DNA of 12,979 nucleotides from Desulfobacteraceae bacterium (lineage in GTDB: Bacteria; Desulfobacterota; DSM-4660; Desulfatiglandales; Desulfatiglandaceae): NCBI GenBank assembly GCA_030589225.1, contig JAUUWD010000011.1:1-12979 (forward strand), given 5' to 3'. Positions 2 through 12,406 of this stretch are shown here, piece after piece. Positions within the stretch are counted from its first letter, which is position 1. The number at the start of each line of letters is the position of its first letter. The position numbers were made by a program, and so were the translations under genes. A model generated the notes under the pieces. The model was given only the letters and a program-made list of their open reading frames with translations. It had not been told where the DNA came from and ran no database searches.

Positions 2-1384
2 GTAGAAAATGTCCTTGAAAACAGGAACACCCGTACTGTTGTAGAGGCCAACAAGGCCAGCTATGAATGGGCCCTGGACCCGAAATACAAGGACATCATG
101 ACATGCTACTCGCCGCTCATTGACGATGTGGTTAACCGATACACTCATGTAAGTGCCAGCACCGAGGACCTGGAAAAAAAGGCTGAAGCAGGCACCTTCA
201 CCGCAGAAATGTTAGGCACCTGTATATACCGGTGTGTGGGATATGATGCATTTCACTCTTTAGCCGCCACTACCTGGGAGATGGACAGGGATTTAGGCAC
301 AGAATACAATCCGCGATTTATTGAATACCTGAAGACGGTTCAGACAAAGGACCTTTCTGTGGCCGGTGCCCTGACCGAACCGAGGGGGAGCCGAAGCAAA
401 AAGACCCTTGACTGGCCTGACCCCTATCTCTCCTTGAAGATCGTTGACAAGAACGATGACGGTATTGTGGTTCGAGGGGCCAAGATAAACATCAGCGGCG
501 CCTTTGCTAGCCACGAATTGGTGGTTTTGCCCCAGGCTGCCCACTTCAAGGGTGAAGAAGACTACGCAGTGGCATTTGCAACGCCCACCGATGCAAAAGG
601 CATCATCTATGTATGCCAGTATTCGCCCTATTCCGCAGAAAGAGATCTGGCTGATGATCTTGAGGAATTAGGCAATCCTCTTTATGGCCAGCGCGAGACC
701 TCCATGGTGATATTTAATGATGTCTTTGTCCCCTGGGACAGGGTATTTCACTGCGGTGAATACAAATATTCCATAAAGTTTGTGACCCGCTTTGCCAAGA
801 CCCACCGCATGACATGCGGAGGCACTTGCAAGGTCGGTTTCATGAATCAGATCATTGGGGCATCAAAACTGATCCAGGAATATAAGGGCCTTGAAAAGAC
901 CACCCACATCAATGACCAGTTGATGGAGATGGTTGTATTGAGGGAAACAGGTCGGGCATGTGGTACTGCGGCTGCCACCAAGGGCGCGGAAGAACCCCCT
1001 GGATCGGGCGTATTCTTGCCAGACGAGCTTATGGGTAATGTCTCCAAGTTGAATATCTGCAATGCCTTCTGGCGTGTTATGGCCTTAGCGGGTGACATCG
1101 GGGGAGGTCTCATTGTGACAATGCCCTCCATGAAGGAATTGAAAAACCCCGAAGTCAGCAAGTATGTAGAGGAATTTTATAGCTTTGGGTCTGATGAACC
1201 AACAGAAAATATTATGAAAGTCCATAAACTTCTCCAGCACTGGACGGCCGGACAACATGGCGTGGCCACATGGCATGGTGCAGGACCGGTTATGGCCCAG
1301 AAGATTATGTTACAAAGAGTTATTGACTACGAGCATGACAAAGACATTGTCAAGCAGACATTAAACCTCAAGGAAAAAGAGTAA
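2..1384 (+). CDS. AbfD-like [4Fe-4S]/FAD dehydratase family protein (5' partial)
   Basis: Related to 4-hydroxybutyryl-CoA dehydratase (AbfD) of the 4-hydroxyphenylacetate 3-hydroxylase/acyl-CoA dehydrogenase fold, which uses FAD and a [4Fe-4S] cluster for radical dehydration of a CoA ester. The frame is open from base 2, so the ATG at 98 is internal; 32 further codons precede it (VENVLENRNTR...). Numbered from that ATG, the cluster ligands are visible: C42-x3-C46 (AbfD C99/C103), H236 in THRMTC (H292) and C244 followed by K245 (C299/K300). E200 probably matches E257. These ligands separate it from the flavin monooxygenases of the same fold. By this alignment about 25 N-terminal residues lie outside the window. 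Two AbfD active-site positions differ: Y296 is C240 and E455 is A390, and one residue is inserted between H236 and C244. The substrate may therefore not be 4-hydroxybutyryl-CoA. It ends 88 bases before the first methyltransferase gene with no evident terminator. Family confident; substrate unknown. Confidence 0.85.
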   Translation, partial: VENVLENRNTRTVVEANKASYEWALDPKYKDIMTCYSPLIDDVVNRYTHVSASTEDLEKKAEAGTFTAEMLGTCIYRCVGYDAFHSLAATTWEMDRDLGTEYNPRFIEYLKTVQTKDLSVAGALTEPRGSRSKKTLDWPDPYLSLKIVDKNDDGIVVRGAKINISGAFASHELVVLPQAAHFKGEEDYAVAFATPTDAKGIIYVCQYSPYSAERDLADDLEELGNPLYGQRETSMVIFNDVFVPWDRVFHCGEYKYSIKFVTRFAKTHRMTCGGTCKVGFMNQIIGASKLIQEYKGLEKTTHINDQLMEMVVLRETGRACGTAAATKGAEEPPGSGVFLPDELMGNVSKLNICNAFWRVMALAGDIGGGLIVTMPSMKELKNPEVSKYVEEFYSFGSDEPTENIMKVHKLLQHWTAGQHGVATWHGAGPVMAQKIMLQRVIDYEHDKDIVKQTLNLKEKE

Positions 1385-2683: not shown

Positions 2684-3211
2684 TTGATTGAGGGCAAGGG
2701 TTTCGGCCTCACTCACATCTATTACGGACAGGGGGTTGGTAAAACTACTAGGGCTGTTGGAATGGCCATAAGGGCGGCTGGAACCGGCCTCAAGGTGGAT
2801 TTTGTTCAGTTCATGAAGTCCGGCAAATCAGGGGAGGTGGCCATATTGGAGAAGATCCCCAACATCCATTATCGGTGCCCTGGTGAGCATCCGTTTATCA
2901 TGTCCCATGGACCGAAGCCTTTACATTATGAACATGCTGAAAAAGCCTTAGGGTATGCCTTTGAGGCTATTCGTAGAGGGACTCATCTGTTAATTTGTGA
3001 TGAGATATTGGATACGCTCATTTTCGAACTGCTCCGAAAAAACCGGCTCCTGGAACTGATAGAAAGGTGTAAAAGAAAGGTTGAACTGGTTATGACGGGC
3101 ATGAGCGCCCCTATGGAGTTCATAGAATTAACCGACTATGCTACCGAGTTTATTCAAATAAAACACGCGTATTACATTGGTGCTAAAGCACGAAAGGGGA
3201 TTGAGTATTAA
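2684..3211 (+). CDS. Divergent corrinoid adenosyltransferase-like P-loop protein (BtuR/CobO family)
   Basis: A 175-residue protein of the BtuR/CobO/CobA family, whose known members transfer adenosyl from ATP to cob(I)alamin. Visible family marks are a P-loop GQGVGKTT (about 19-26), VDFVQFMKSGKSGE (about 45-58), the Walker-B-like LLICDEILD (about 105), VMTGMSAP and the C-terminal signature KARKGIEY. Length is normal. Two positions depart from the family: the canonical P-loop GNGKGKTT has become GQGVGKTT (N to Q, K to V), and the usual TGR is TGM. The start is uncertain. TTG at 2684 is the only usual start codon upstream of the P-loop in this open frame, which extends back to 2606 after a TAA, but AGGA at 2680-2683 touches it, giving poor spacing. 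A GGAG at 2645-2648 is well spaced only for an ATT codon at 2657. Placed among corrinoid methyltransferase genes, it may adenosylate or handle corrinoid for this system. A second, canonical homologue lies at 12537. Confidence 0.8.
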   Translation: MIEGKGFGLTHIYYGQGVGKTTRAVGMAIRAAGTGLKVDFVQFMKSGKSGEVAILEKIPNIHYRCPGEHPFIMSHGPKPLHYEHAEKALGYAFEAIRRGTHLLICDEILDTLIFELLRKNRLLELIERCKRKVELVMTGMSAPMEFIELTDYATEFIQIKHAYYIGAKARKGIEY

Positions 3212-3596: not shown

Positions 3597-4565
3597 ATGA
3601 CTTTCAAAGAGAGACTGGGCGTGTTTGAGACCGAGCAAAAGGTATGCGAGATTGGAGGTGTGAAATTTGGAGGGCAACCTGGAGAGTACCCGACTGTGGT
3701 CTGTTCTTCTATCTTTCAAAAGGGGGATAGGATCTTCGAAGGGAAGCGCAAAGAGGGGTTTAACGAGAAGCGGGCCGGGGAACTTCTCAAGACCCAGGAT
3801 AAACTCTGGGCAGAGACCGGTGTGCCGGGAATGGCTGACATTGTGGCTAATACCGGCAAAGAATTCAAACTCTATGTTGACTTTGTGACCACTGTAAGCG
3901 ATATGCCCTTTTGCGTGGATGCCTGGAAGATGAAACCCAAATTAGAGGGCGCAGCGTATTGTGCGGAGAAGGGACTGCTGGGCCGTATGTTTTACAACAG
4001 CCTCACGGTCTGGGAAGAGGATCTGGAGACAGAGATCCGCGAGATCTCCCAGATGGGCGTCAAGCATGTGCTCCTTGTGGCCTTTGACATGGCGGATCAG
4101 ATGCCAAGCGGACGAATCACGGGTACTCAAAAACTTCTGGATGCTATTGAGAAGGTTGGGGCAGAATTTGAAAGTATCTTTGTGGACACTTCTGTCATGA
4201 ACGGGCCGGCTACTGCCCTCTGCGGTATTGCAAACCGGATGATCAAGGAGAAGTGGGGTTTTCCGGGAGCCAGTGCGCCAAGCAACGGCTCATATATGTG
4301 GAAGAAGGCCCGGGAGCTGTGGGGTTTTAAGGGTTGGTCAGCTGCTGATGCAGGTTTACAGGCCCTGTCTTCTTTCATGTACCACGACATGATATTCTCC
4401 GGACCCATGGCCGGTGCACCAAGGATCTTTCCGGCTGTGGCTATGGCCGATGCATTTCTCGCCACAGCGGTCTTTGCCGAGACGAAGAAATTGCCCACGG
4501 ATCAAAGTCATCCGCTTTACAAGCTGTTTCCGGAGTTTGTTGAACAGTTAGAGTCGATTGAGTAG
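3597..4565 (+). CDS. MtrH-family methylcorrinoid:tetrahydropterin methyltransferase (MT2 candidate)
   Basis: A 322-residue soluble protein of the MtrH family, named for subunit H of the archaeal methyl-H4MPT:CoM methyltransferase and used more widely in bacterial and archaeal demethylation systems (MtvA, MtoA, MtgA types). The N-terminal family block is clear: EIGGVKFGGQPGEYPTV at about residues 18-34, followed by SSIF, the stretch VDFVTTVSDMPFCVDAW near 94-110, and a GRITGT segment. Other Mtr subunits are absent, so this is a stand-alone methyl carrier enzyme, expected to move the methyl group from the corrinoid protein encoded directly downstream onto H4folate or H4methanopterin. Which pterin is used cannot be told by eye. 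The gene ends with TAG. Reading through would add only 18 codons before TAA, so amber readthrough as pyrrolysine is not supported. It lies 85 bases before the corrinoid protein gene, as expected for a shared operon. Confidence 0.88.
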   Translation: MTFKERLGVFETEQKVCEIGGVKFGGQPGEYPTVVCSSIFQKGDRIFEGKRKEGFNEKRAGELLKTQDKLWAETGVPGMADIVANTGKEFKLYVDFVTTVSDMPFCVDAWKMKPKLEGAAYCAEKGLLGRMFYNSLTVWEEDLETEIREISQMGVKHVLLVAFDMADQMPSGRITGTQKLLDAIEKVGAEFESIFVDTSVMNGPATALCGIANRMIKEKWGFPGASAPSNGSYMWKKARELWGFKGWSAADAGLQALSSFMYHDMIFSGPMAGAPRIFPAVAMADAFLATAVFAETKKLPTDQSHPLYKLFPEFVEQLESIE

Positions 4566-4650: not shown

Positions 4651-5334
4651 ATGGCTTCAGAAGAGAGAACTAAGGAAATTATAAACGAGATTCGTCAGGC
4701 ATTGATAAACTATGATGAGGATGGAGTTGGGGAATGGGCCAAGAAGGCCTTGGATGAAGGCGTAGACCCATTTATCGCGACTATGGAGGGACTGGCTGAC
4801 GGAATGATAGAGGTGGGGGAGCTTTATAATAAAAAGGAGTACTTTGTTCCTGAACTCCTGCTTTGCTCTGATGCACTCTATGCTGGGCTGGACATTCTAA
4901 GGCCAGCTATTAAGGCCTCGGGAAGACAATCTGAGGCAAAAGGCTCGATAGTCTTGGGCGTGGTTGAGGGCGATGTTCATGATATCGGTAAAAACCTGAT
5001 CAAGATGATGTTTGATGTGTCCGGATGGACCGTTTACGACCTGGGAAAGGACGTGCCGCTTGACAAATTTGTGGAAGAACAGTTGAGGACTGATTCTGAA
5101 ATCGTGGGCCTCTCAGCTTTAATGACGACCAGCATGGTAGCTATGCAGGATATCGTAAAGAAATTAAAAGAGAAAAACCCCAACGTTCGCATCATGTTGG
5201 GCGGCGCTCCGATAACCTCGGAAATTGCGGACATGTACGGCGCTGATGGTTACGCTGAAAGCGCAGGGACTGCGGTTGATGAAGCAATTAGAATGATTAA
5301 GATGCTGAAGGAAGAAGAAATGGAAAGGAAATGA
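4651..5334 (+). CDS. Methyltransferase corrinoid protein (MtaC/MtvC/MtoC type)
   Basis: The methyl-carrying cobalamin protein of the system, 227 residues, the usual size. Residues 1-90 form the helical B12-binding cap domain (PF02607 type), with the EYFVPELLL motif at about 63-71. Residues 97-220 form the Rossmann-like B12-binding domain. The base-off/His-on signature DxHxxG is intact as D108-V-H110-D-I-G113 within VEGDVHDIGKN, H110 being the expected lower cobalt ligand. The accompanying SxL (S155-A-L157) and GG (184-185) elements that hold the nucleotide tail are present. In such systems the Co(I) form is methylated by MT1 and demethylated by MT2. It is cytoplasmic with no signal peptide. 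Its TGA stop lies 3 bases before the ATG of the activator gene, which strongly suggests translational coupling with the enzyme that would reactivate it. Confidence 0.95.
   Translation: MASEERTKEIINEIRQALINYDEDGVGEWAKKALDEGVDPFIATMEGLADGMIEVGELYNKKEYFVPELLLCSDALYAGLDILRPAIKASGRQSEAKGSIVLGVVEGDVHDIGKNLIKMMFDVSGWTVYDLGKDVPLDKFVEEQLRTDSEIVGLSALMTTSMVAMQDIVKKLKEKNPNVRIMLGGAPITSEIADMYGADGYAESAGTAVDEAIRMIKMLKEEEMERK
5324..5329 (+). promoter_or_regulatory. Ribosome binding site of the activator gene, inside the corrinoid protein gene
   Basis: AAAGGA lies 8 bases before the ATG at 5338, within the last codons of the corrinoid protein gene. It supports coupled translation of the two. Confidence 0.6.
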
Positions 5335-5337
5335 GTT

Positions 5338-8300
5338 ATGCCAGGGAACGAAGACGAAAAATATTTGGTCATTTTTCAGCCATCCGGGTGCAGAGGCTAT
5401 ATTGAAAAAGCCAAAACCCTTAAAGAGGCCTCTGTAGCTCTGGGTGTAGACATTGAAGGCGTATGCGGAGAAAAGGCCATCTGTGGTACGTGCAAGGTGA
5501 GGATTGAAGAGGGGAACTTCGAGAAATATGGTATCACCTCAACAAGGGACAATCTTTCCCCCATAGGGCCAACGGAAAGAAAATTCTTCAATCTGCAACA
5601 GGAGGAAGAAGGCTACCGTCTTGCCTGTCAAACAAAGATCATGGGTGATGTCGTAATCTTCGTCCCTGAGGAAAGTCGGATGGGGAAACAAGTGGTTCGC
5701 AAAGCGGCCACCGATAGACCCATCGAGGTGAAACCGGCTGTCAAGAAGTACTACGTAGAGCTGAAAAAGGCCACCTTGGAAGACACCCTTGGCGACTGGG
5801 AGCGGCTTAGCAACGAACTTAGTAAAAAGTACGACCTGAGCAACCTGACTATTGATTATCAGGTGCTCATGGAATTACAAAACGCTGTGCGTGATGGTGA
5901 TTGGAAGGTGACCGCATCAATATGGCATGAAAAAGAGGTCATCAAGGTGGAACCAGGGCTTGTGGAAAAGGTTTACGGCCTTGCGGTAGATGTGGGCACA
6001 TCTACGGTTGCCGGCTACCTTTGTGATATGACCGATGGCTCGGTTGTAACAACCGGTTCTATGATGAATCCACAGGTGGTGTATGGCGAAGATGTCATGT
6101 CCCGCATCAGCTTCACCATGACGAATCCAAATGGTCTGGAAATCTTGAACGGAGCAATTCTTGATGGTCTCAATGGAATTGCGGAAGAGGTGGCTGCCGC
6201 GGCAGGTATTAAGCGTCAGGATATTGTAGATATGTCCATCGTAGGCAATACCTGCATGCACCATATTTTCCTCAATACCGATCCAAAATATATCGGCCGA
6301 TCCCCTTTCCCCCCTTCGATCCACCATTCGATAGATCTTAAGGCCCGTGACTGGGGCCTCAAGATAGAGCCAGAGGTTGAAATCGCGGGAAAGGGCACCT
6401 ACCCGCCCTGCCAGGTCAAATGTCCTGCCGGGGTCAATGGACAGGACTTCTCATATCTCATTGCCCAGGGTAAGTTCAAAGAGGCCCTTGAATTAGTGAG
6501 GATGGCCATTCCCTTTGCCGGGGTGCTCGGACGTATCTGTACCCATCCCTGTGAGGCTGAATGTGAAAGGGGAGATGTGGATGAACCTCTTTCCCTACGT
6601 TCTCTCCATCGTTTTATTGCCGATTACGAGCTCAGGGAGGGTAGGGAGAAGACAACCCCTATTGAAAAAACAAAAGAAGAGATGATAGCTATCATAGGGT
6701 CCGGGCCAGGTGGGCTTGCCTGTGCTTATGAACTGGTCAAAAATGGATATCCGGTTACGGTCTTTGAGACTGCTTCCAAGTGCGGCGGAATGATGCGCTA
6801 TGGCATACCTGAATACCGTCTACCCAGAGAGATACTGGATGACGAGATTAACTACATTGAAGAGTTAGGAGTAGAGATAAAAACCAACACCTTAGTGGAG
6901 AGCTTAGAGGAGATCTTCAATCAGGGGTACAAGGCGATCTTCCTGAGTACAGGTGCCTGGACAAGCCAGACGTTGAATATTCCTGATGAAGATGCCAATG
7001 GTGTCATCTATGCCCTTGAGTTCCTGAAAAGGGTAAATTCAGGGGAAAAGGTGGAGCTTGGGGAAAAGGTGGCAGTCATTGGTGCCGGCAGCGTGGCTAT
7101 CGATGCTGCCAGGCTTTCCTTGCGACTTGGAGCCAAAGAAGTAAACCTCATTTGTTTAGAAGCCACCGATCTTACCTGTAAAGACAGGATGCCGGCCCAG
7201 GACATGGAAATTGAACAGGCCGCGGAAGAAGGAGTGATTATCCATCCTTCCCTCGGGGTAGCCAAAATTTTAACTGAACAAGACAAGGTCACAAGCCTGG
7301 AGACGGTTCGTTGTGTCTCAGTAATCGATTCAGAAGGCAGGTTTGCTCCTGAATTTGCCGAAGGTCCTGCCCCTATTATAAAGGCGGACACCGTAATCAT
7401 TGCAATTGGTCAGAAACCAGATGAGAAAGATTTTACCGAAGTGGACAAAGCGCCGTTTGGAACAGTCAAGGTGGAAGAGACTACCCTGGAGACGAACATT
7501 CAAGGCGTCTTTGCGGGTGGTGATGTGGTTTCTGGCCCGGCTGATGTCATTAGCGCCGTTGCTGCCGGAAAACAGGCAGCCATATCCATTGAGCTTTACC
7601 TTGCGGGAATGGACTTAAAGGAATCCAGGCCAGCCCCACTTCAACGAATTGAAGAAGTACCAAAGGAAGGGGTGGAGACAGAGGCAAGGCAGGCTATGCC
7701 TGTACTTGAACCGGAGAAAAGAAAAAAGCTTGCCGAGGTTGAGCTGGGCTATGAGGACCAGATGGCCATGAAGGAATCACAGCGCTGTCTTCACTGTGGA
7801 GTCTTTGCGCAAAAGGAAGCCTCTGAATCGGCTCAGACCCGCGGCATAGGTATCCGGATATCTCCGGGGGCGTATATCCACGTCCTTCCCATCGAGGCCG
7901 GTTTTGTGGGTGCTGATAATATCGGGGTGCTTATCGCTGAAGAACCTTACAAACAGGATAGTATAGAGCTTATTATTGATATCGGAACCAATGGTGAGAT
8001 AATCCTGGGCAATCGCGAAAGGCTTATCTCGGCATCTTGCGCCACCGGACCTGCCTTTGAGGGGGCTGAACTAAAATACGGCATGCGTGCGGCCCCGGGT
8101 GCGATCGAAAAGGTAGAGATAGATCCAGTGACCAAGGATGTCCGCTTCAAGGTTATTGATGAGGAAAGGTGGAATACCGAGATGAAGCCAGAGGAAGTGG
8201 GCGCCAAGGGACTCTGTGGCTCGGGGATCATTGATGCCATACCTCAACTTTTCTTGGCGGGAATTATCGATAAAACGGGACGTTTCAAAAGCGATGAGTC

Positions 8301-8790
8301 CAATCCCCGCTTCCGAAAGGTTGAAGGGCAGTTCGAGTATGTCATTGCCTGGGCAAAAGAGACTTCAATCGGTCAGGACATTGTAGTTTGTCAGGACGAC
8401 ATAAGGGCGATTCAGCTTGGTAAAGGCGCCATGTACGCTGGGAGCAAAATCCTGATGCAAACCCTGGGTGTGGAAGAGGTAGACAAGATCATCTTGGCTG
8501 GTGCCTTTGGAAGTTATATAGACAAACAATCAGCAGCCGTACTGGGGATGTTCCCTGACTGCGAGGAGGACAAGGTGTATTCTGTGGGAAATGCCGCTGG
8601 TGATGGTGCCCGCATGGCCCTCCTTAACGTGGACAAGAGGAAGGAGGCTGATGAGTTCGCCGGGAAGGTGGAATATATAGAACTGACTGTATCTCCTGAG
8701 TTTGAAAGGACTTTTGCTAAGTCAATGTGGATACCTCATATGAAGGATGAATTTCCCCACTTGAGTCACATTCTACCGCAAAAGAAGTGA
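5338..8790 (+). CDS. RACo-type corrinoid reductive activator with a GltD/NfnB-like NAD(P)H oxidoreductase nested in its ASKHA domain
   Basis: A 1150-residue protein of nested domains. Residues 1-112 are a [2Fe-2S] ferredoxin with C43-x5-C49-x2-C52...C97. Residues 113-210 match the linker and middle region of RACo. The ASKHA (DUF4445) ATPase starts at 211 (GLAVDVGTSTVAG) and runs through NPQVVYGEDVMSRI and VGNTCMHH to about 345. It is then interrupted by a complete GltD-like module. This has iron-sulfur cysteines C358, C362 and C401-x3-C405-x3-C409, FAD motif GSGPGG (454-459), NAD(P)H motif GAGSVA (582-587), FAD closure GVFAGGDV (723-730) and ESQRCLHCG (813-821). The ASKHA domain resumes near 836 with LPIEAGFVGAD, DIGTNGEI, GPAFEG, GLCGSG and LAGAFGSYID. 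RACo relatives use ATP to reduce inactive Co(II) corrinoid with ferredoxin-type electrons. Here NAD(P)H could feed FAD, the clusters and the [2Fe-2S] centre in one chain; that route is inferred. Without the insert the length (about 680) matches ordinary RACo. The fusion is in frame throughout. Confidence 0.93.
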   Translation: MPGNEDEKYLVIFQPSGCRGYIEKAKTLKEASVALGVDIEGVCGEKAICGTCKVRIEEGNFEKYGITSTRDNLSPIGPTERKFFNLQQEEEGYRLACQTKIMGDVVIFVPEESRMGKQVVRKAATDRPIEVKPAVKKYYVELKKATLEDTLGDWERLSNELSKKYDLSNLTIDYQVLMELQNAVRDGDWKVTASIWHEKEVIKVEPGLVEKVYGLAVDVGTSTVAGYLCDMTDGSVVTTGSMMNPQVVYGEDVMSRISFTMTNPNGLEILNGAILDGLNGIAEEVAAAAGIKRQDIVDMSIVGNTCMHHIFLNTDPKYIGRSPFPPSIHHSIDLKARDWGLKIEPEVEIAGKGTYPPCQVKCPAGVNGQDFSYLIAQGKFKEALELVRMAIPFAGVLGRICTHPCEAECERGDVDEPLSLRSLHRFIADYELREGREKTTPIEKTKEEMIAIIGSGPGGLACAYELVKNGYPVTVFETASKCGGMMRYGIPEYRLPREILDDEINYIEELGVEIKTNTLVESLEEIFNQGYKAIFLSTGAWTSQTLNIPDEDANGVIYALEFLKRVNSGEKVELGEKVAVIGAGSVAIDAARLSLRLGAKEVNLICLEATDLTCKDRMPAQDMEIEQAAEEGVIIHPSLGVAKILTEQDKVTSLETVRCVSVIDSEGRFAPEFAEGPAPIIKADTVIIAIGQKPDEKDFTEVDKAPFGTVKVEETTLETNIQGVFAGGDVVSGPADVISAVAAGKQAAISIELYLAGMDLKESRPAPLQRIEEVPKEGVETEARQAMPVLEPEKRKKLAEVELGYEDQMAMKESQRCLHCGVFAQKEASESAQTRGIGIRISPGAYIHVLPIEAGFVGADNIGVLIAEEPYKQDSIELIIDIGTNGEIILGNRERLISASCATGPAFEGAELKYGMRAAPGAIEKVEIDPVTKDVRFKVIDEERWNTEMKPEEVGAKGLCGSGIIDAIPQLFLAGIIDKTGRFKSDESNPRFRKVEGQFEYVIAWAKETSIGQDIVVCQDDIRAIQLGKGAMYAGSKILMQTLGVEEVDKIILAGAFGSYIDKQSAAVLGMFPDCEEDKVYSVGNAAGDGARMALLNVDKRKEADEFAGKVEYIELTVSPEFERTFAKSMWIPHMKDEFPHLSHILPQKK

Positions 8791-8840: not shown

Positions 8841-9878
8841 ATGAACACCGAACTAAGTTCCAGAGAGAGGGTGCTTAAATGTTTCAGAGGGGAGAAGATA
8901 GACCGCTTGCCTGTCTTCAGCGGCTATGGGAATGTCACCGTACACGGACTTGAGAAATATGGCTGGAGATTTGCCGAGATACATGTGGACGCAAAAAAAA
9001 TGGCAAACATGGCTGCATCCACGCACCAGCTCTTCGGCTTTGAGTGTGCAGTGGTCCCCTTTGATATGGGGGTCGAGGCCGAAGCCTTAGGCGCCGGGGT
9101 TAACTTTTACGCCCATCACACTGATGTTGTTTATCCTACAATAGCCAGTAAGGTGGCGGAAAAAGTAATGGATCTGGACCTAAAGATACCATCGGATTTG
9201 GCAAAGGCGGGAAGGATACCATTAGTAGTAGAGGCAATTCGCCTTTTAAAAGAGGAGATAGGCGACCGAGTGGCTATAGGATCTTGGACCCTTGGGCCTT
9301 ACACATTGGCTGGGCAGCTCGTGGATATTGGAGATCTGGCAAAGATGACCTTCAAAAAGAAAGACATGGTAGATAAGGTCCTGGACGCTTTGGGTGAGGT
9401 GATTGTCGAGATATCGAGGATTTATCGGGAAGCAGGGGCCGATTATATGACCATCCGCGAGATGGGAGCGGGACCGGACATATTGAGCCCGCGCATTTTC
9501 AAAACCCTTATACGACCCCATCTGGAGAAAGTATTCGCCGCCATAGAATCGCCGAAAATCCTGCACATTTGCGGAGATACAAATACCATTGTTGAAGAGA
9601 TGGCCCTCTGTGGGGCTGATGCCATCAGCGTAGACCAAAAGAACGACGTGGCTGAATCCCGGAATAAGCTGGGCCCTGATGCGTTCATCTTGGGAAACAT
9701 CGATCCTTATATGGTGATTGTGAAAGGAAAACCGGATGACGTGGATAATGCCGTAAAGGAGGCCGTCGCCAACGGTGTCAATGCCATTTGGCCGGGGTGT
9801 GATATTTTCCCGACGGCCCCTAAGGAGAACATGAAGGCACTAATGGCAGCGGCACAAAAGTATGGTAAGCTCAGTTGA
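8841..9878 (+). CDS. MtaA/MtbA-like UroD-family cobamide methyltransferase
   Basis: A 345-residue protein of the UroD superfamily that looks like the methylcobamide methyltransferases MtaA/MtbA. It opens with the family start SSRERVLKCFRGEKIDRLPV (residues 6-25), carries VVPFDMGVEAEALG at 71-84, and shows the zinc ligands H242-x-C244 (LHICGDT) and C320 (WPGCDIFPTAP). In methanogens such enzymes methylate coenzyme M; a bacterium with an MtrH-type acceptor enzyme would not need that. It may be a second substrate:corrinoid methyltransferase, giving the corrinoid protein two entry points, or a partner of the first UroD protein. It is the last gene of the apparent core operon. The 165 bases after it contain no clear hairpin followed by a T-run. 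Confidence 0.85.
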   Translation: MNTELSSRERVLKCFRGEKIDRLPVFSGYGNVTVHGLEKYGWRFAEIHVDAKKMANMAASTHQLFGFECAVVPFDMGVEAEALGAGVNFYAHHTDVVYPTIASKVAEKVMDLDLKIPSDLAKAGRIPLVVEAIRLLKEEIGDRVAIGSWTLGPYTLAGQLVDIGDLAKMTFKKKDMVDKVLDALGEVIVEISRIYREAGADYMTIREMGAGPDILSPRIFKTLIRPHLEKVFAAIESPKILHICGDTNTIVEEMALCGADAISVDQKNDVAESRNKLGPDAFILGNIDPYMVIVKGKPDDVDNAVKEAVANGVNAIWPGCDIFPTAPKENMKALMAAAQKYGKLS

Positions 9879-10006: not shown

Positions 10007-10035
10007 TTGACTTTCATCTCGTTTTGTACAAATAT
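10007..10035 (+). promoter_or_regulatory. Sigma70-type promoter candidate for the riboswitch transcript
   Basis: TTGACT (10007-10012) is followed after 17 bases by AAATAT (10030-10035). Transcription would then start near 10042, just at the 5' strand of riboswitch helix P1. The -35 box is good and the -10 box is weak; an alternative -10, TACAAA at 10027, has shorter spacing. The fit to the riboswitch start is the main support. Confidence 0.5.
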
Positions 10036-10041
10036 CTTTGC

Positions 10042-10223
10042 TTGTTCAGGTGCTCGTGTAGCTCAATAGGGAACCCCGTTAAAGTCGGGGACGGGCCCGC
10101 CGCTGTAGTCCTGCCCTTTCCAGATGGAAAAGGGAACCCTTTCAGCCTTGTGTGCCACTGTTCCAGACCGGGAATGGGAAGGCCGCTGAAAGGGCGGGAA
10201 AGTCAGAAGACCTGCCTGAACGG
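10042..10223 (+). ncRNA. Cobalamin riboswitch aptamer
   Basis: A B12-sensing RNA upstream of the B12 receptor gene. P1 closes with GTTCAGG (10044-10050) against CCTGAAC (10215-10221). CCCCG (10074-10078) pairs with CGGGG (10086-10090), followed by the conserved-type CCGCCGCTGTA. A hairpin CCCTTTCC/GGAAAAGGG spans 10114-10134. A perfect 10-bp helix joins 10137-10146 to 10185-10194 and encloses the conserved GCCACTG (10154-10160) and GGGAAGGC (10176-10183). The B12 box AGTCAGAAGACCTGCC (10201-10216) is the family hallmark. In known cases cobalamin binding lowers expression of downstream transport genes. Confidence 0.95.
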
Positions 10224-10281
10224 ATGGGCATGACCTTCGCGGACAGAGGGGCAGTCACAGGATCTTGAGGATAAAAAAGGG

Positions 10282-10423: not shown

Positions 10424-12406
10424 ATGAAAAAATTGTTTGTTTTATCGGCAGTTTTGGTTATGTTATCAATTTCATGGTTTAGTCAGGCTCAAGAGAAAGA
10501 AAAGGCAATAACAGCGCTGGAAGAGGTAGTGGTAACCGCAACCAGGGTCGAAGAACAGAAAAAAGAGATCACCAGTAATGTAACCATTATTGATGAAGAA
10601 GAGATCAAGAATTCCTCGGCCAAGGATTTAGGGGATTTATTGGCTGAAGAAGGAATTGGACACATCCAGAAATACCCCGGCACCCTAACTACAATTGGTA
10701 TCCGTGGCTTCAGGACCGAAGCCCTCGGTAATGACCTGATGGGCCATGTCCTGATTTTGCTGAACGGACGGAGGGCAGGCACTGGTAATGCGGCCAAGAT
10801 TATGACCAAAAATATAGAGAGAGTGGAAATAATAAGAGGGCCTGCCTCTGTTCAGTATGGTTCAGCCGCTATTGGCGGAGTCGTAAACGTGATTACTAAA
10901 AAGGGAAGGGATAAACCCAGTGCGTTTGTTGAGGGAATGTTGGGAAGTTTTAGCTATACAGAAGGGAGTGTTGGGTTTTCAGGAAAAACCAAGGGATTTG
11001 ATTTCTCTGGAAGTTTTACCACAGAATCGATGGATGACTATGATACTGGCGATGGAGAAAAATATTACAATACAGGCTATGATCGCAAACAAAGCGCTAG
11101 CTTGAATCTCGGTTTTGAGTTTCTGCCTGAAAACCGTATTGGTCTCATCTACAATTATTTTAATGGCGATAAGATAGGTAACCCAAACTACCTTAGTCAA
11201 AACGATCTTGACGATTATTGGGATACAAGCAATAAGTCCATTGATTTCATCTATGAAGGTGGAATCCCAAACGGTCTGTTTTCCTGGAAGGCCAGATATT
11301 TTAGCGGAAAAGACGAAAATAAATGGACTGATCCAATCGCGAGCAACCCTGATTTCTGGGACGATGGTATTCCAAGCACAGTAGAGGTTGACCAAAAAGG
11401 GGCACAGGCACAGGTGTCTTATGATCAGGAATATTTATTGGTTACAGGCGGTTTCGATTGGGTGAATTACAAGACCGAAGATGATACATATAGTCCAAAA
11501 AAAACTGAATACAACAACCCAGCTTATTTTATCTTTGCAAAGGCAAAACTTTTTGATCAGAGGTTTATCATCTCTGGTGGTGTGAGATATGACGATTATA
11601 CGGTTGACATGAAAGATGAAGGGGGAAAAGAGAGAGATAATCACACTTCTCCCCGGGCAGGCGTGGCCTATCTTCTCACGGACTATCTGAAACTGAGAGC
11701 CAACTATGGGGAGGCATTCAAGATGCCTTCTGCCCGGCAATTGGCCGGCAATTATCCAGGTTTTCCAGGAAATTATGTGGGCAACCCCGATCTAAAACCC
11801 GAAACAAGCAATACAGTTGAAGGGGGGCTTGATATATCTTATGCGTCTTTTAATTCTTCCCTTACCTATTTCCATACGAATTTCAGGGACAAGATCCAGA
11901 CTGCTTCTACATCAACCAGTGACATAACATGGGAAAACGTTGGGAAAGCTGAAATAGAAGGCTTTGAGGCTGAGTTCTCCTATGACATAGGGGCGAGTTT
12001 TGCATGGGATTTTGAGTTGAAACCTTACGTAAGTTTTGTTTATCTGACAGAGTATAAAGACAAGGAAACAGGCGAAGATCTCAAGTATACCCCTGACCTT
12101 AACGTATCTTACGGTATTACCTTCTCCGATTTTAATGGCTTTTCCTCTAATTTAAATTTTGCCTACGCTGGAGAACAATGGGTGGATGACTGGGAAAGCG
12201 GGGTGTGGCCGGCGCCTGTCATAAAAAAAGGTAGCTTTACGGTTGCCAATTTCACAATCGCCAAAAGGATACTCGATTTTCAAAAATATGGATCAATGAC
12301 TTTAAAAGGGGAGATTCAAAACCTTTTTAACAAGGATTATTCCTACGTCAAGGGCTATCCAATGCCCGGGAGAAGTTTCTTCCTTGGTCTGAGGTATGCA
12401 TTCTAA
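10424..12406 (+). CDS. btuB: TonB-dependent outer-membrane cobalamin receptor (BtuB-like)
   Basis: A 660-residue TonB-dependent receptor that would import corrinoids through the outer membrane using TonB/ExbBD energy. Residues 1-22 are a Sec signal peptide (MKK, hydrophobic core, cleavage probably after SQA). A TonB box EEVVVTA lies at 33-39. The plug domain spans about 45-160 and includes IGIRGF and the classic end NIERVEIIRGPASVQYGSAA followed by GGVVNVITKK. The rest is a 22-strand-type barrel rich in alternating aromatic and polar residues, with the receptor C-terminal motif ending in FFLGLRYAF, whose final Phe is the usual outer-membrane assembly signal. The cobalamin riboswitch directly upstream is the main reason to assign B12 rather than iron-siderophore transport. 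Length fits BtuB (about 600-660). No BtuFCD genes are visible here. Confidence 0.88.
   Translation: MKKLFVLSAVLVMLSISWFSQAQEKEKAITALEEVVVTATRVEEQKKEITSNVTIIDEEEIKNSSAKDLGDLLAEEGIGHIQKYPGTLTTIGIRGFRTEALGNDLMGHVLILLNGRRAGTGNAAKIMTKNIERVEIIRGPASVQYGSAAIGGVVNVITKKGRDKPSAFVEGMLGSFSYTEGSVGFSGKTKGFDFSGSFTTESMDDYDTGDGEKYYNTGYDRKQSASLNLGFEFLPENRIGLIYNYFNGDKIGNPNYLSQNDLDDYWDTSNKSIDFIYEGGIPNGLFSWKARYFSGKDENKWTDPIASNPDFWDDGIPSTVEVDQKGAQAQVSYDQEYLLVTGGFDWVNYKTEDDTYSPKKTEYNNPAYFIFAKAKLFDQRFIISGGVRYDDYTVDMKDEGGKERDNHTSPRAGVAYLLTDYLKLRANYGEAFKMPSARQLAGNYPGFPGNYVGNPDLKPETSNTVEGGLDISYASFNSSLTYFHTNFRDKIQTASTSTSDITWENVGKAEIEGFEAEFSYDIGASFAWDFELKPYVSFVYLTEYKDKETGEDLKYTPDLNVSYGITFSDFNGFSSNLNFAYAGEQWVDDWESGVWPAPVIKKGSFTVANFTIAKRILDFQKYGSMTLKGEIQNLFNKDYSYVKGYPMPGRSFFLGLRYAF

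Follow-up and report, generated by a model that had tools for sequence, protein, structure and literature searches.

Genes at the locus

The window, by which we mean the whole stretch of 12 979 nucleotides analysed here, carries all the features described below on its forward strand. The gene at 5338–8790 starts with ATG, runs as a single uninterrupted frame and encodes a protein of 1150 amino acids. Pfam matches, a structure match, homologues and a structural model identify the product as a corrinoid activator of the RACo/RACE type, with a GltD/NfnB-like oxidoreductase nested within its ASKHA domain. Directly upstream, at 4651–5334, domain profiles place a probable cognate corrinoid protein (B12-binding_2 and B12-binding); a corrinoid-protein gene was the next recognised upstream gene in 11 of the 12 distinct fused loci compared, and is the most constant neighbour of the activator. 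Its stop codon, TGA at 5332–5334, closely precedes the activator ATG at 5338, which makes the translational coupling proposed in a sequence-only reading of the window plausible; nevertheless, the case is weak because the gap between the two genes is longer in the relatives compared.

Further upstream, at 3597–4565, lies an MtrH-family methyltransferase, the probable methyltransferase II (PF02007; 286.6 bits against NF002142, for which the cut-off is 287). Two URO-D/MtaA-CmuA-type methyltransferases (PF01208) are encoded at 1473–2516 and 8841–9878, scoring respectively below and above the TIGR01463 cut-off, and one of them is probably the methyltransferase I of the system. Promoter and terminator scans gave fewer sites than were found in shuffled sequences.

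An oxidoreductase interrupts the ASKHA domain

Pfam domains follow one another along the protein in the order Fer2 (residues 26–101), RACo_linker (124–210), Raco_middle (213–349), Fer4_20 (355–434), Pyr_redox_2 (450–744) and RACo_C_ter (876–1142). The first is the N-terminal [2Fe-2S] ferredoxin domain (5413–5640; PF00111, above cut-off), with its cysteines at 43, 49, 52 and 97, and is followed by the RACo linker domain at 5707–5967 (PF17650). The Raco_middle match (PF17651) comprises profile positions 1–137 of 163, in two stretches, and because it ends at position 137 we conclude that this domain is interrupted. The first part of the ASKHA domain spans residues 213–345 (5974–6372), as judged from the end of this match and from the fold match to 3zyy_Y, and the second part spans residues 838–1142 (7849–8763; PF14574, structure match and model fold). 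After residue ∼345 the domain is broken by a complete FAD/NAD(P)H/[4Fe-4S] oxidoreductase, residues 352–825 (6391–7812), delimited by PF14691, PF07992, matches to 9bov and 4ylf, and low-pLDDT linkers. At ∼474 residues, the oxidoreductase proper is close to the ∼470 first estimated. A hexapeptide repeat, recognised by alignment and pattern comparison, flanks the insert, with GLKIEP on the left (residues 340–345; 6355–6372) and GIRISP on the right (residues 838–843; 7849–7866); it was counted in 114 of 135 rows, those matching both patterns.

The match to the structure of Carboxydothermus hydrogenoformans RACo (3zyy) falls into two pieces, residues 8–327 corresponding to 3–321 and residues 839–1135 to 335–622, and 511 residues of the window protein occupy the place of 13 in 3zyy, which is without the insert. 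Together with the Pfam order, this confirms the earlier proposal of an activator with an oxidoreductase inside its ATPase domain. In an AlphaFold2 model, both ASKHA halves form one RACo fold (510 of 522 residues of 3zyy_Y, 2.9 Å), and the insert adopts the NfnB fold as a separate lobe (401 residues, 2.1 Å against 4ylf_B); the sequence-only reading thereby withstands a refuting condition of its own. The two are joined by linkers of low pLDDT, 345–351 and 825–836, and the pTM of 0.58 means that the mutual orientation of the lobes is not fixed by the model.

Among the 120 aligned fused sequences (the window protein and 119 fused homologues), Cys 43, 49 and 52 are present in 119 and Cys97 in all; ASKHA residues D218, G220 and T223, and the DIGTNGE motif at 881–887, are invariant in an 18-row alignment. 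With an N-terminal [2Fe-2S] domain containing four cysteines, and a single ASKHA-type ATPase fold with RACo linker, middle and C-terminal domains, the protein belongs to the RACo/RACE group. It has the Fer2, linker and ASKHA domains, and the adjoining corrinoid-protein gene, in common with C. hydrogenoformans RACo and with AE of Acetobacterium dehalogenans (RACE family). It does not belong to AcsV, the CoFeSP activator subfamily of RACo, scoring 434 bits against NCBIfam NF040756, whose cut-off is 800.

Cofactor motifs of the nested cassette

The combination of Fer4_20 and Pyr_redox_2, seven cysteines for two [4Fe-4S] clusters, and FAD and NAD(P) dinucleotide motifs marks the cassette as GltD/NfnB-like. 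Cys 358, 362, 401, 405, 817 and 820 occur in 120/120 aligned fused sequences and Cys409 in 119/120, which, with the residues described above, bears out the initial impression that the key motifs are intact on both sides of the junctions. The C-terminal CxxC (Cys817 and Cys820; 7786–7797), recognised by conservation and alignment with known structures, is likely to ligate the second [4Fe-4S] cluster, by analogy with Thermotoga maritima NfnB (4ylf_B), whose cassette fold is alike but in which the CxxC precedes the cassette on the N-terminal side.

StnC of Sporomusa ovata (8oh5) and subunit A of NfnABC (9bov, 9n5u) contain the same GltD-like NAD(P)H/FAD/[4Fe-4S] domain with a C-terminal CxxC; however, both are parts of larger transhydrogenase subunits, are not nested in an ATPase, and have Lys where the window cassette has His. 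The latter residue, His424 (codon 6607–6609), aligns with StnC Lys170, a ligand of the FAD-proximal [4Fe-4S] cluster. Position 424 is His in 128/128 RACo-nested cassettes, whereas it is Lys in 30/31 related cassettes outside RACo, including 19 of the 20 HdrA-nested cassettes compared; the His was identified with a pattern in 125 of 134 proteins, the other 9 being inspected visually. In these alignments a host-specific His, newly recognised here, stands in RACo-nested cassettes where StnC has the Lys ligand of its FAD-proximal cluster. Arg494, which aligns with StnC Arg239, is retained in 127 of the 128.

Alignment and trees place the NAD(P)-binding subdomain at residues ∼576–686 (7063–7395) and show it to be of the ‘CLE’ type; the YRR motif found at this position in 9bov, 9n5u, 8oh5 and 4ylf is absent from the window protein. 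Position 608 is Arg in 62 and Glu in 66 of the 128 RACo-nested cassettes. Rossmann-fold rules provide the ground for inferring a choice between NADH and NADPH from YRR and CLE.

Recurrence and origin of the nested architecture

The same order of parts was found in 120/120 homologues among the matches listed, and in 7 genomes of a 395-genome sample from the phylum, the genome of the window included; the architecture is thus rare in this sample. Because the order recurs in all 120 listed homologues and in the 12 distinct loci, the reading frame is not an assembly join. One of these loci (L024, identical to L104) has an in-frame stop near a contig end. Nor has the insert replaced the other activators of the cell, as unfused paralogues, C21 and C201, persist in the same genome. 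Their presence, together with loss of the cassette in a relative, L032, indicates that the cassette is dispensable in some settings.

Nesting of such a cassette has a precedent in another host. PMC9012536 already describes HdrA9-11 of ANME-1 with an NfnB-like insertion of 500 residues, and HdrA proteins of Chloroflexi/Dehalococcoidia (L027–L031) contain a related nested cassette, 57–65% identical to that of the window, which in L027 sits at one point of HdrA. The host halves of the window protein match RACo, not HdrA. The assertion that no example had been characterised thus stands for RACo, for which a literature search confined to openly licensed PMC papers found no report of a nested oxidoreductase, but not for nesting as such.

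Two kinds of NAD(P) subdomain had suggested several independent insertions. For the cassette core this was ruled out, since the 32 RACo-nested rows tested formed one clade with support of 100/100. L032, which lacks the cassette, is nested inside the fused clade, 126 of whose 127 members retain it in a sample assembled by seeking fusions; placement of L032 as an ancestral unfused state was rejected (AU p 0.00019). That tree used LG+G4 with no mixture, gave support of no more than 84/75 for separating fused rows plus L032 from C21, and is uncertain as to the long C21 and L025b branches; change counts alone cannot separate gain from loss. The trees speak for a single insertion, with exact loss of the cassette on at least one occasion. 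They also indicate, as a new observation, that the NAD(P)-binding subdomain was swapped between cassettes independently of the host and of the remaining cassette.

The cassette tree sets held 128 RACo-nested and 31 other cassettes, including duplicate records (L009 = L023, L010 = L020, L021 = L099, L022 = L102 and L024 = L104, of which only the first two pairs have both members in the set); rows below 1080 aa, and P0054, L025 and L042, which the cutting pattern missed, were excluded. HdrA-nested cassettes numbered 15 by motif pattern, and 20 of the 31 by comparison of both HdrA halves. The clade and subdomain-exchange trees used 48 of the 159 rows, with P0020 and P0096 entered manually as CLE on account of their position in the first trees. 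The FastTree drawing was rerooted, which displaced its support labels, and our conclusions rest on the other trees.

A proposed self-contained activator

We consider it likely that the protein is a one-polypeptide, NAD(P)H-driven and ATP-gated reductive activator of a corrinoid methyltransferase. NAD(P)H would be oxidised at the FAD of the nested lobe, and single electrons would then travel by way of both [4Fe-4S] clusters to the [2Fe-2S] cluster of the activator itself. The ASKHA ATPase surrounding the insert would dock on the corrinoid protein of the adjacent gene and use ATP to allow transfer of the [2Fe-2S] electron, which would convert the inactive Co(II) state into active Co(I). Such a protein could do without the outside ferredoxin or flavodoxin on which ordinary RACo/AE proteins are assumed to depend. 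The proposed route fits the potentials published in PMC6739815, and has an analogue in the path from NADPH through FAD to Fe-S clusters described for StnC in PMC10482914. Against this reading counts an observation in PMC7448270, that in estradiol methyltransferase extracts, in which a RACE-like protein, nested or not, is supposed, NAD(P)H together with ATP failed to substitute for Ti(III) citrate. The unfixed orientation of the lobes, the unfused activators of the same genome, the loss in L032, the rarity of the architecture and the in-frame stop in L024 also weigh against it.

The lobe might instead be an NAD(P)H:ferredoxin-type reductase that serves a separate carrier or partner, nesting merely co-localising it with a RACo that still draws its electron from ferredoxin or flavodoxin. 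Relatives of the cassette do feed other proteins or domains in Nfn, Stn and HdrA, and the model does not fix contact between the lobes; we nevertheless think this unlikely, given the single origin of the cassette, the His that occurs without exception at the FAD-proximal cluster in this host, the retention of the cassette almost throughout the fused clade (in a sample that sought fusions) and the constancy of the corrinoid-protein gene as neighbour. An NfnB-like bifurcation of NAD(P)H electrons, with the low-potential electron going to the corrinoid, the high-potential one elsewhere and ATP merely gating, would accord with the conserved Arg494, since StnC Arg239 is equated with the N5 arginine of NfnB in PMC10482914. 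The same paper, however, calls the StnC FAD non-bifurcating despite this arginine and links a Glu cluster ligand of NfnB, here His, to low potential, and the window genes include no evident high-potential acceptor, so that we regard bifurcation as very unlikely.

A role for the insert as a redox sensor, tuning the ATPase to the NAD(P)H/NAD(P)+ ratio rather than donating electrons, seems very improbable. An insertion within an ATPase domain could pass on a conformational change, and electron transfer to the RACo part is itself deduced, but the seven cysteines that would ligate two [4Fe-4S] clusters, each present in at least 119 of the 120 sequences, in our judgement exceed what simple sensing would seem to require. 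An assembly chimera or pseudogene fusion might be feared because the window is one contig from an assembly of 355 pieces with 66% completeness, but recurrence of the part order, and the single open frame in the window, leave it practically no weight.

Implications

The natural donor of RACo/RACE-type activators is an unsettled point; an outside donor, with ferredoxin or flavodoxin as examples, is proposed for AE in PMC6739815, and the donor is called unknown in PMC7448270. The nested reductase suggests where corrinoid activators may get their electrons, a natural fusion that points to NAD(P)H. Because donor, relay and ATPase lie in one chain, the question becomes testable with one purified protein and its corrinoid protein, and a self-contained activator is offered for work on B12 methyltransferases. 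We lean somewhat towards a wider interpretation, in which an NAD(P)H reductase cassette, plugged into two unrelated redox machines, HdrA and RACo, would make RACo self-powered and ferredoxin-independent, the host-specific His would retune the flavin-adjacent cluster, and exchange of the nucleotide subdomain between hosts would switch lineages between NADH and NADPH. The family also offers a case of a redox module lodged within a fold to which it is unrelated, with exchange of the part that binds its cofactor.

A nested RACo-type activator

Positions 5338–8790 are a single open frame of 1150 residues with Pfam matches in the order Fer2, RACo_linker, Raco_middle, Fer4_20, Pyr_redox_2 and RACo_C_ter; the Raco_middle match ends at profile position 137 of 163, ahead of Fer4_20. 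The protein matches the Carboxydothermus hydrogenoformans RACo structure 3zyy in two pieces (residues 8–327 and 839–1135), spaced by 511 residues as against 13 in 3zyy. Its domains and fold make it a RACo/RACE activator, the NCBIfam model does not class it as AcsV, and its insert is a GltD/NfnB-type domain. This confirms the nested architecture; the coordinates, block positions and insert length of the sequence-only reading were correct.

All 120 homologues listed (62–96% identical) have the order RACo N-part, cassette, RACo C-part. Architecture was read in these 120, from a search in which 4952 of 7998 scored proteins were found at E 1e-100. A query spanning the left junction (residues 290–430) gave 125 proteins at E ≤ 1e-35, of 425 candidates. 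Among the best 80 loci on GTDB contigs, fusions occur at least in MAGs titled Desulfobacteraceae, Syntrophaceae and Deltaproteobacteria, and also in Thermodesulfobacteriota (L024, contig-cut), Peptococcaceae (L025) and Dehalococcoidia (L026) MAGs. The fusion was found in four of 61 whole genomes, one of the four being split over two contig pieces, and in seven of 395 genomes (5/246 genera) of a phylum sample, a count that takes in the contig-cut L104, with its in-frame stop; both counts include the genome studied here. The order claimed thus recurs in other genomes, both in the homologues and across the phylum, and the nested architecture is real, scattered over distant bacteria, yet rare. In L104 (the same locus as L024, 430–3189) the in-frame TAA lies close to the contig end, the surrounding sequence is well conserved, and the stop is either a sequencing error or real decay.

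Probable insertion and loss of the cassette

A 49-row tree of the RACo part (IQ-TREE, LG+G4) groups the fused rows with a single unfused protein, L032 from a Syntrophaceae MAG (84/75). L032 sits well within this group, joined to 11 fused rows at 100/100. A group of fused rows without L032 was rejected (AU p 0.00019). A single insertion of the cassette, with one or more losses, explains this most simply. The hexapeptide G[LI]xIxx, which belongs to the host, occurs once in activators without the insert (legible in 18 of 19) and twice in fused ones, with one copy at each insert end (GLKIxP ... GIKI[SA]P; legible in 114 of 135 rows); the L032 sequence resembles a junction across the two copies. 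At the level of protein sequence, the pattern would fit a target-site-like duplication and loss by recombination between short repeats.

L032 (2324–4378, Syntrophaceae UBA2208) is an activator of the fused clade with the cassette exactly lost, and its neighbours (corrinoid protein, MtrH, URO-D) resemble those of the fused locus L021. The genome studied here also carries an unfused paralogue (contig C21, 9–1583; L002/L007), which is truncated by the start of its contig and shares 54% and 63% identity with the respective halves of the window activator; the ORF after it looks like, and is presumably, an isoleucyl-tRNA synthetase.

Related cassettes and their subdomains

HdrA proteins encoded in Chloroflexi and Dehalococcoidia MAGs (L027, 9137–12481, plus L028, L029 and L031) are split by cassettes of the same family. 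In L027, with a cassette 65% identical to the window's, residues 3–290 match residues 4–291 of the HdrA structure 5odc_A and residues 760–1111 match 293–645. Of 31 non-RACo cassettes in the tree set, 20 stand between two HdrA halves, at 48–65% identity to the window's cassette. The interrupted HdrA proteins of L027, L028, L029 and L031 are bacterial counterparts of ANME-1 HdrA9–11, for which a 500-residue NfnB-like insertion has been published (PMC9012536). Nesting as such is therefore not new, and the earlier statement that no characterised example exists holds, as far as the literature searched shows, for RACo as the host.

The NAD(P)-binding subdomain has two forms, CLE (the window's) and YRR; both occur among the four HdrA loci L027, L028, L029 and L031. 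Trees were built from 48 of 159 rows. With the subdomain left out, the cassette tree unites the RACo-nested rows in a single clade (100/100) and rejects CLE as one clade (p 1e-5). On the subdomain, CLE is a single clade spanning hosts (100/100); RACo-nested rows as one clade are rejected (p 5e-5). Two homologues, P0043 and P0044, change position with the part compared: the subdomain groups them with L027 (94/94), the remainder of the cassette with the window's CLE clade (94/99), and the RACo part places them among YRR rows (96/87). Because the latter two placements differ, the tracts exchanged between cassettes may extend beyond the subdomain itself. Another homologue, P0096, carries the short stretch YRRSQAEMPA in a cassette otherwise of CLE type, which looks like a switch confined to the nucleotide-binding loop. 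We infer that CLE corresponds to NADH and YRR to NADPH; StnC, a GltD-like relative from Sporomusa ovata, has the YRR motif and binds NADPH (PMC10482914).

All 128 RACo-nested cassettes have His at residue 424. Among the 31 others, 30 have Lys there, and the HdrA-nested L015 is the one that does not. The position aligns gap-free with Lys170 of StnC (8oh5), which in one state of the enzyme ligates the [4Fe-4S] cluster adjoining FAD; NfnB has Glu at this position (PMC10482914). Because of this alignment, His424 is predicted to be a cluster ligand, with an altered potential.

Gene neighbourhood

Upstream of the fused gene lie genes for a corrinoid protein (4651–5334) and an MtrH-type methyltransferase, and the group is flanked by URO-D-type methyltransferase genes. 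URO-D proteins serve as methyltransferase I. Judged by its gene content, the set has the make-up of a four-component demethylase system, four being the number of components described for systems of this kind (PMC6739815). In 11 of 12 distinct fused loci (duplicates removed), the first recognised gene upstream of the fused one encodes the corrinoid protein; in L026 the corrinoid-protein gene lies 4.6 kb downstream.

A full-length cobalamin riboswitch (10031–10233, + strand; RF00174, 88.8 bits) precedes a TonB-dependent receptor gene (10424–12406, +), with matches that include TonB-B12, below cut-off; this is probably a corrinoid uptake gene adjoining the methyltransferase cluster. Within the cluster is a cob(I)alamin adenosyltransferase-like gene (2684–3211, +; PF02572, TTG start), homologues of which (75% identity) lie near the fused gene, on the opposite strand, in L020 and L023. 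An HpaB-family (4-hydroxyphenylacetate 3-hydroxylase-like) gene at 2–1384 (+) may be cut, as its reading frame runs up to the first bases of the contig.

Proposed electron route and the role of ATP

The potential of NADH is about −320 mV. In the fused protein electrons would pass from FAD through two [4Fe-4S] clusters to the [2Fe-2S] cluster; the homologous flavin of StnC is reported to be non-bifurcating and to pass electrons singly along a chain of Fe-S clusters (PMC10482914). The A. dehalogenans activator has its [2Fe-2S] cluster at −330 mV and, with ATP, shifts the corrinoid potential from −530 to −250 mV; binding of RACo itself lowers the CoFeSP potential (PMC6739815), and therefore ATP may act differently from one system to another. 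In work on an estradiol methyltransferase, NAD(P)H together with ATP failed as a substitute for Ti(III) citrate (PMC7448270), which is compatible with an activator lacking the NAD(P)H module and is no proof of it. Since NADH is nearly isopotential with the [2Fe-2S] cluster of the A. dehalogenans activator, an attached NAD(P)H dehydrogenase could be enough as donor, without ferredoxin. The proposal that the nested protein would act as an NAD(P)H-driven Co(II) reductase is well motivated.
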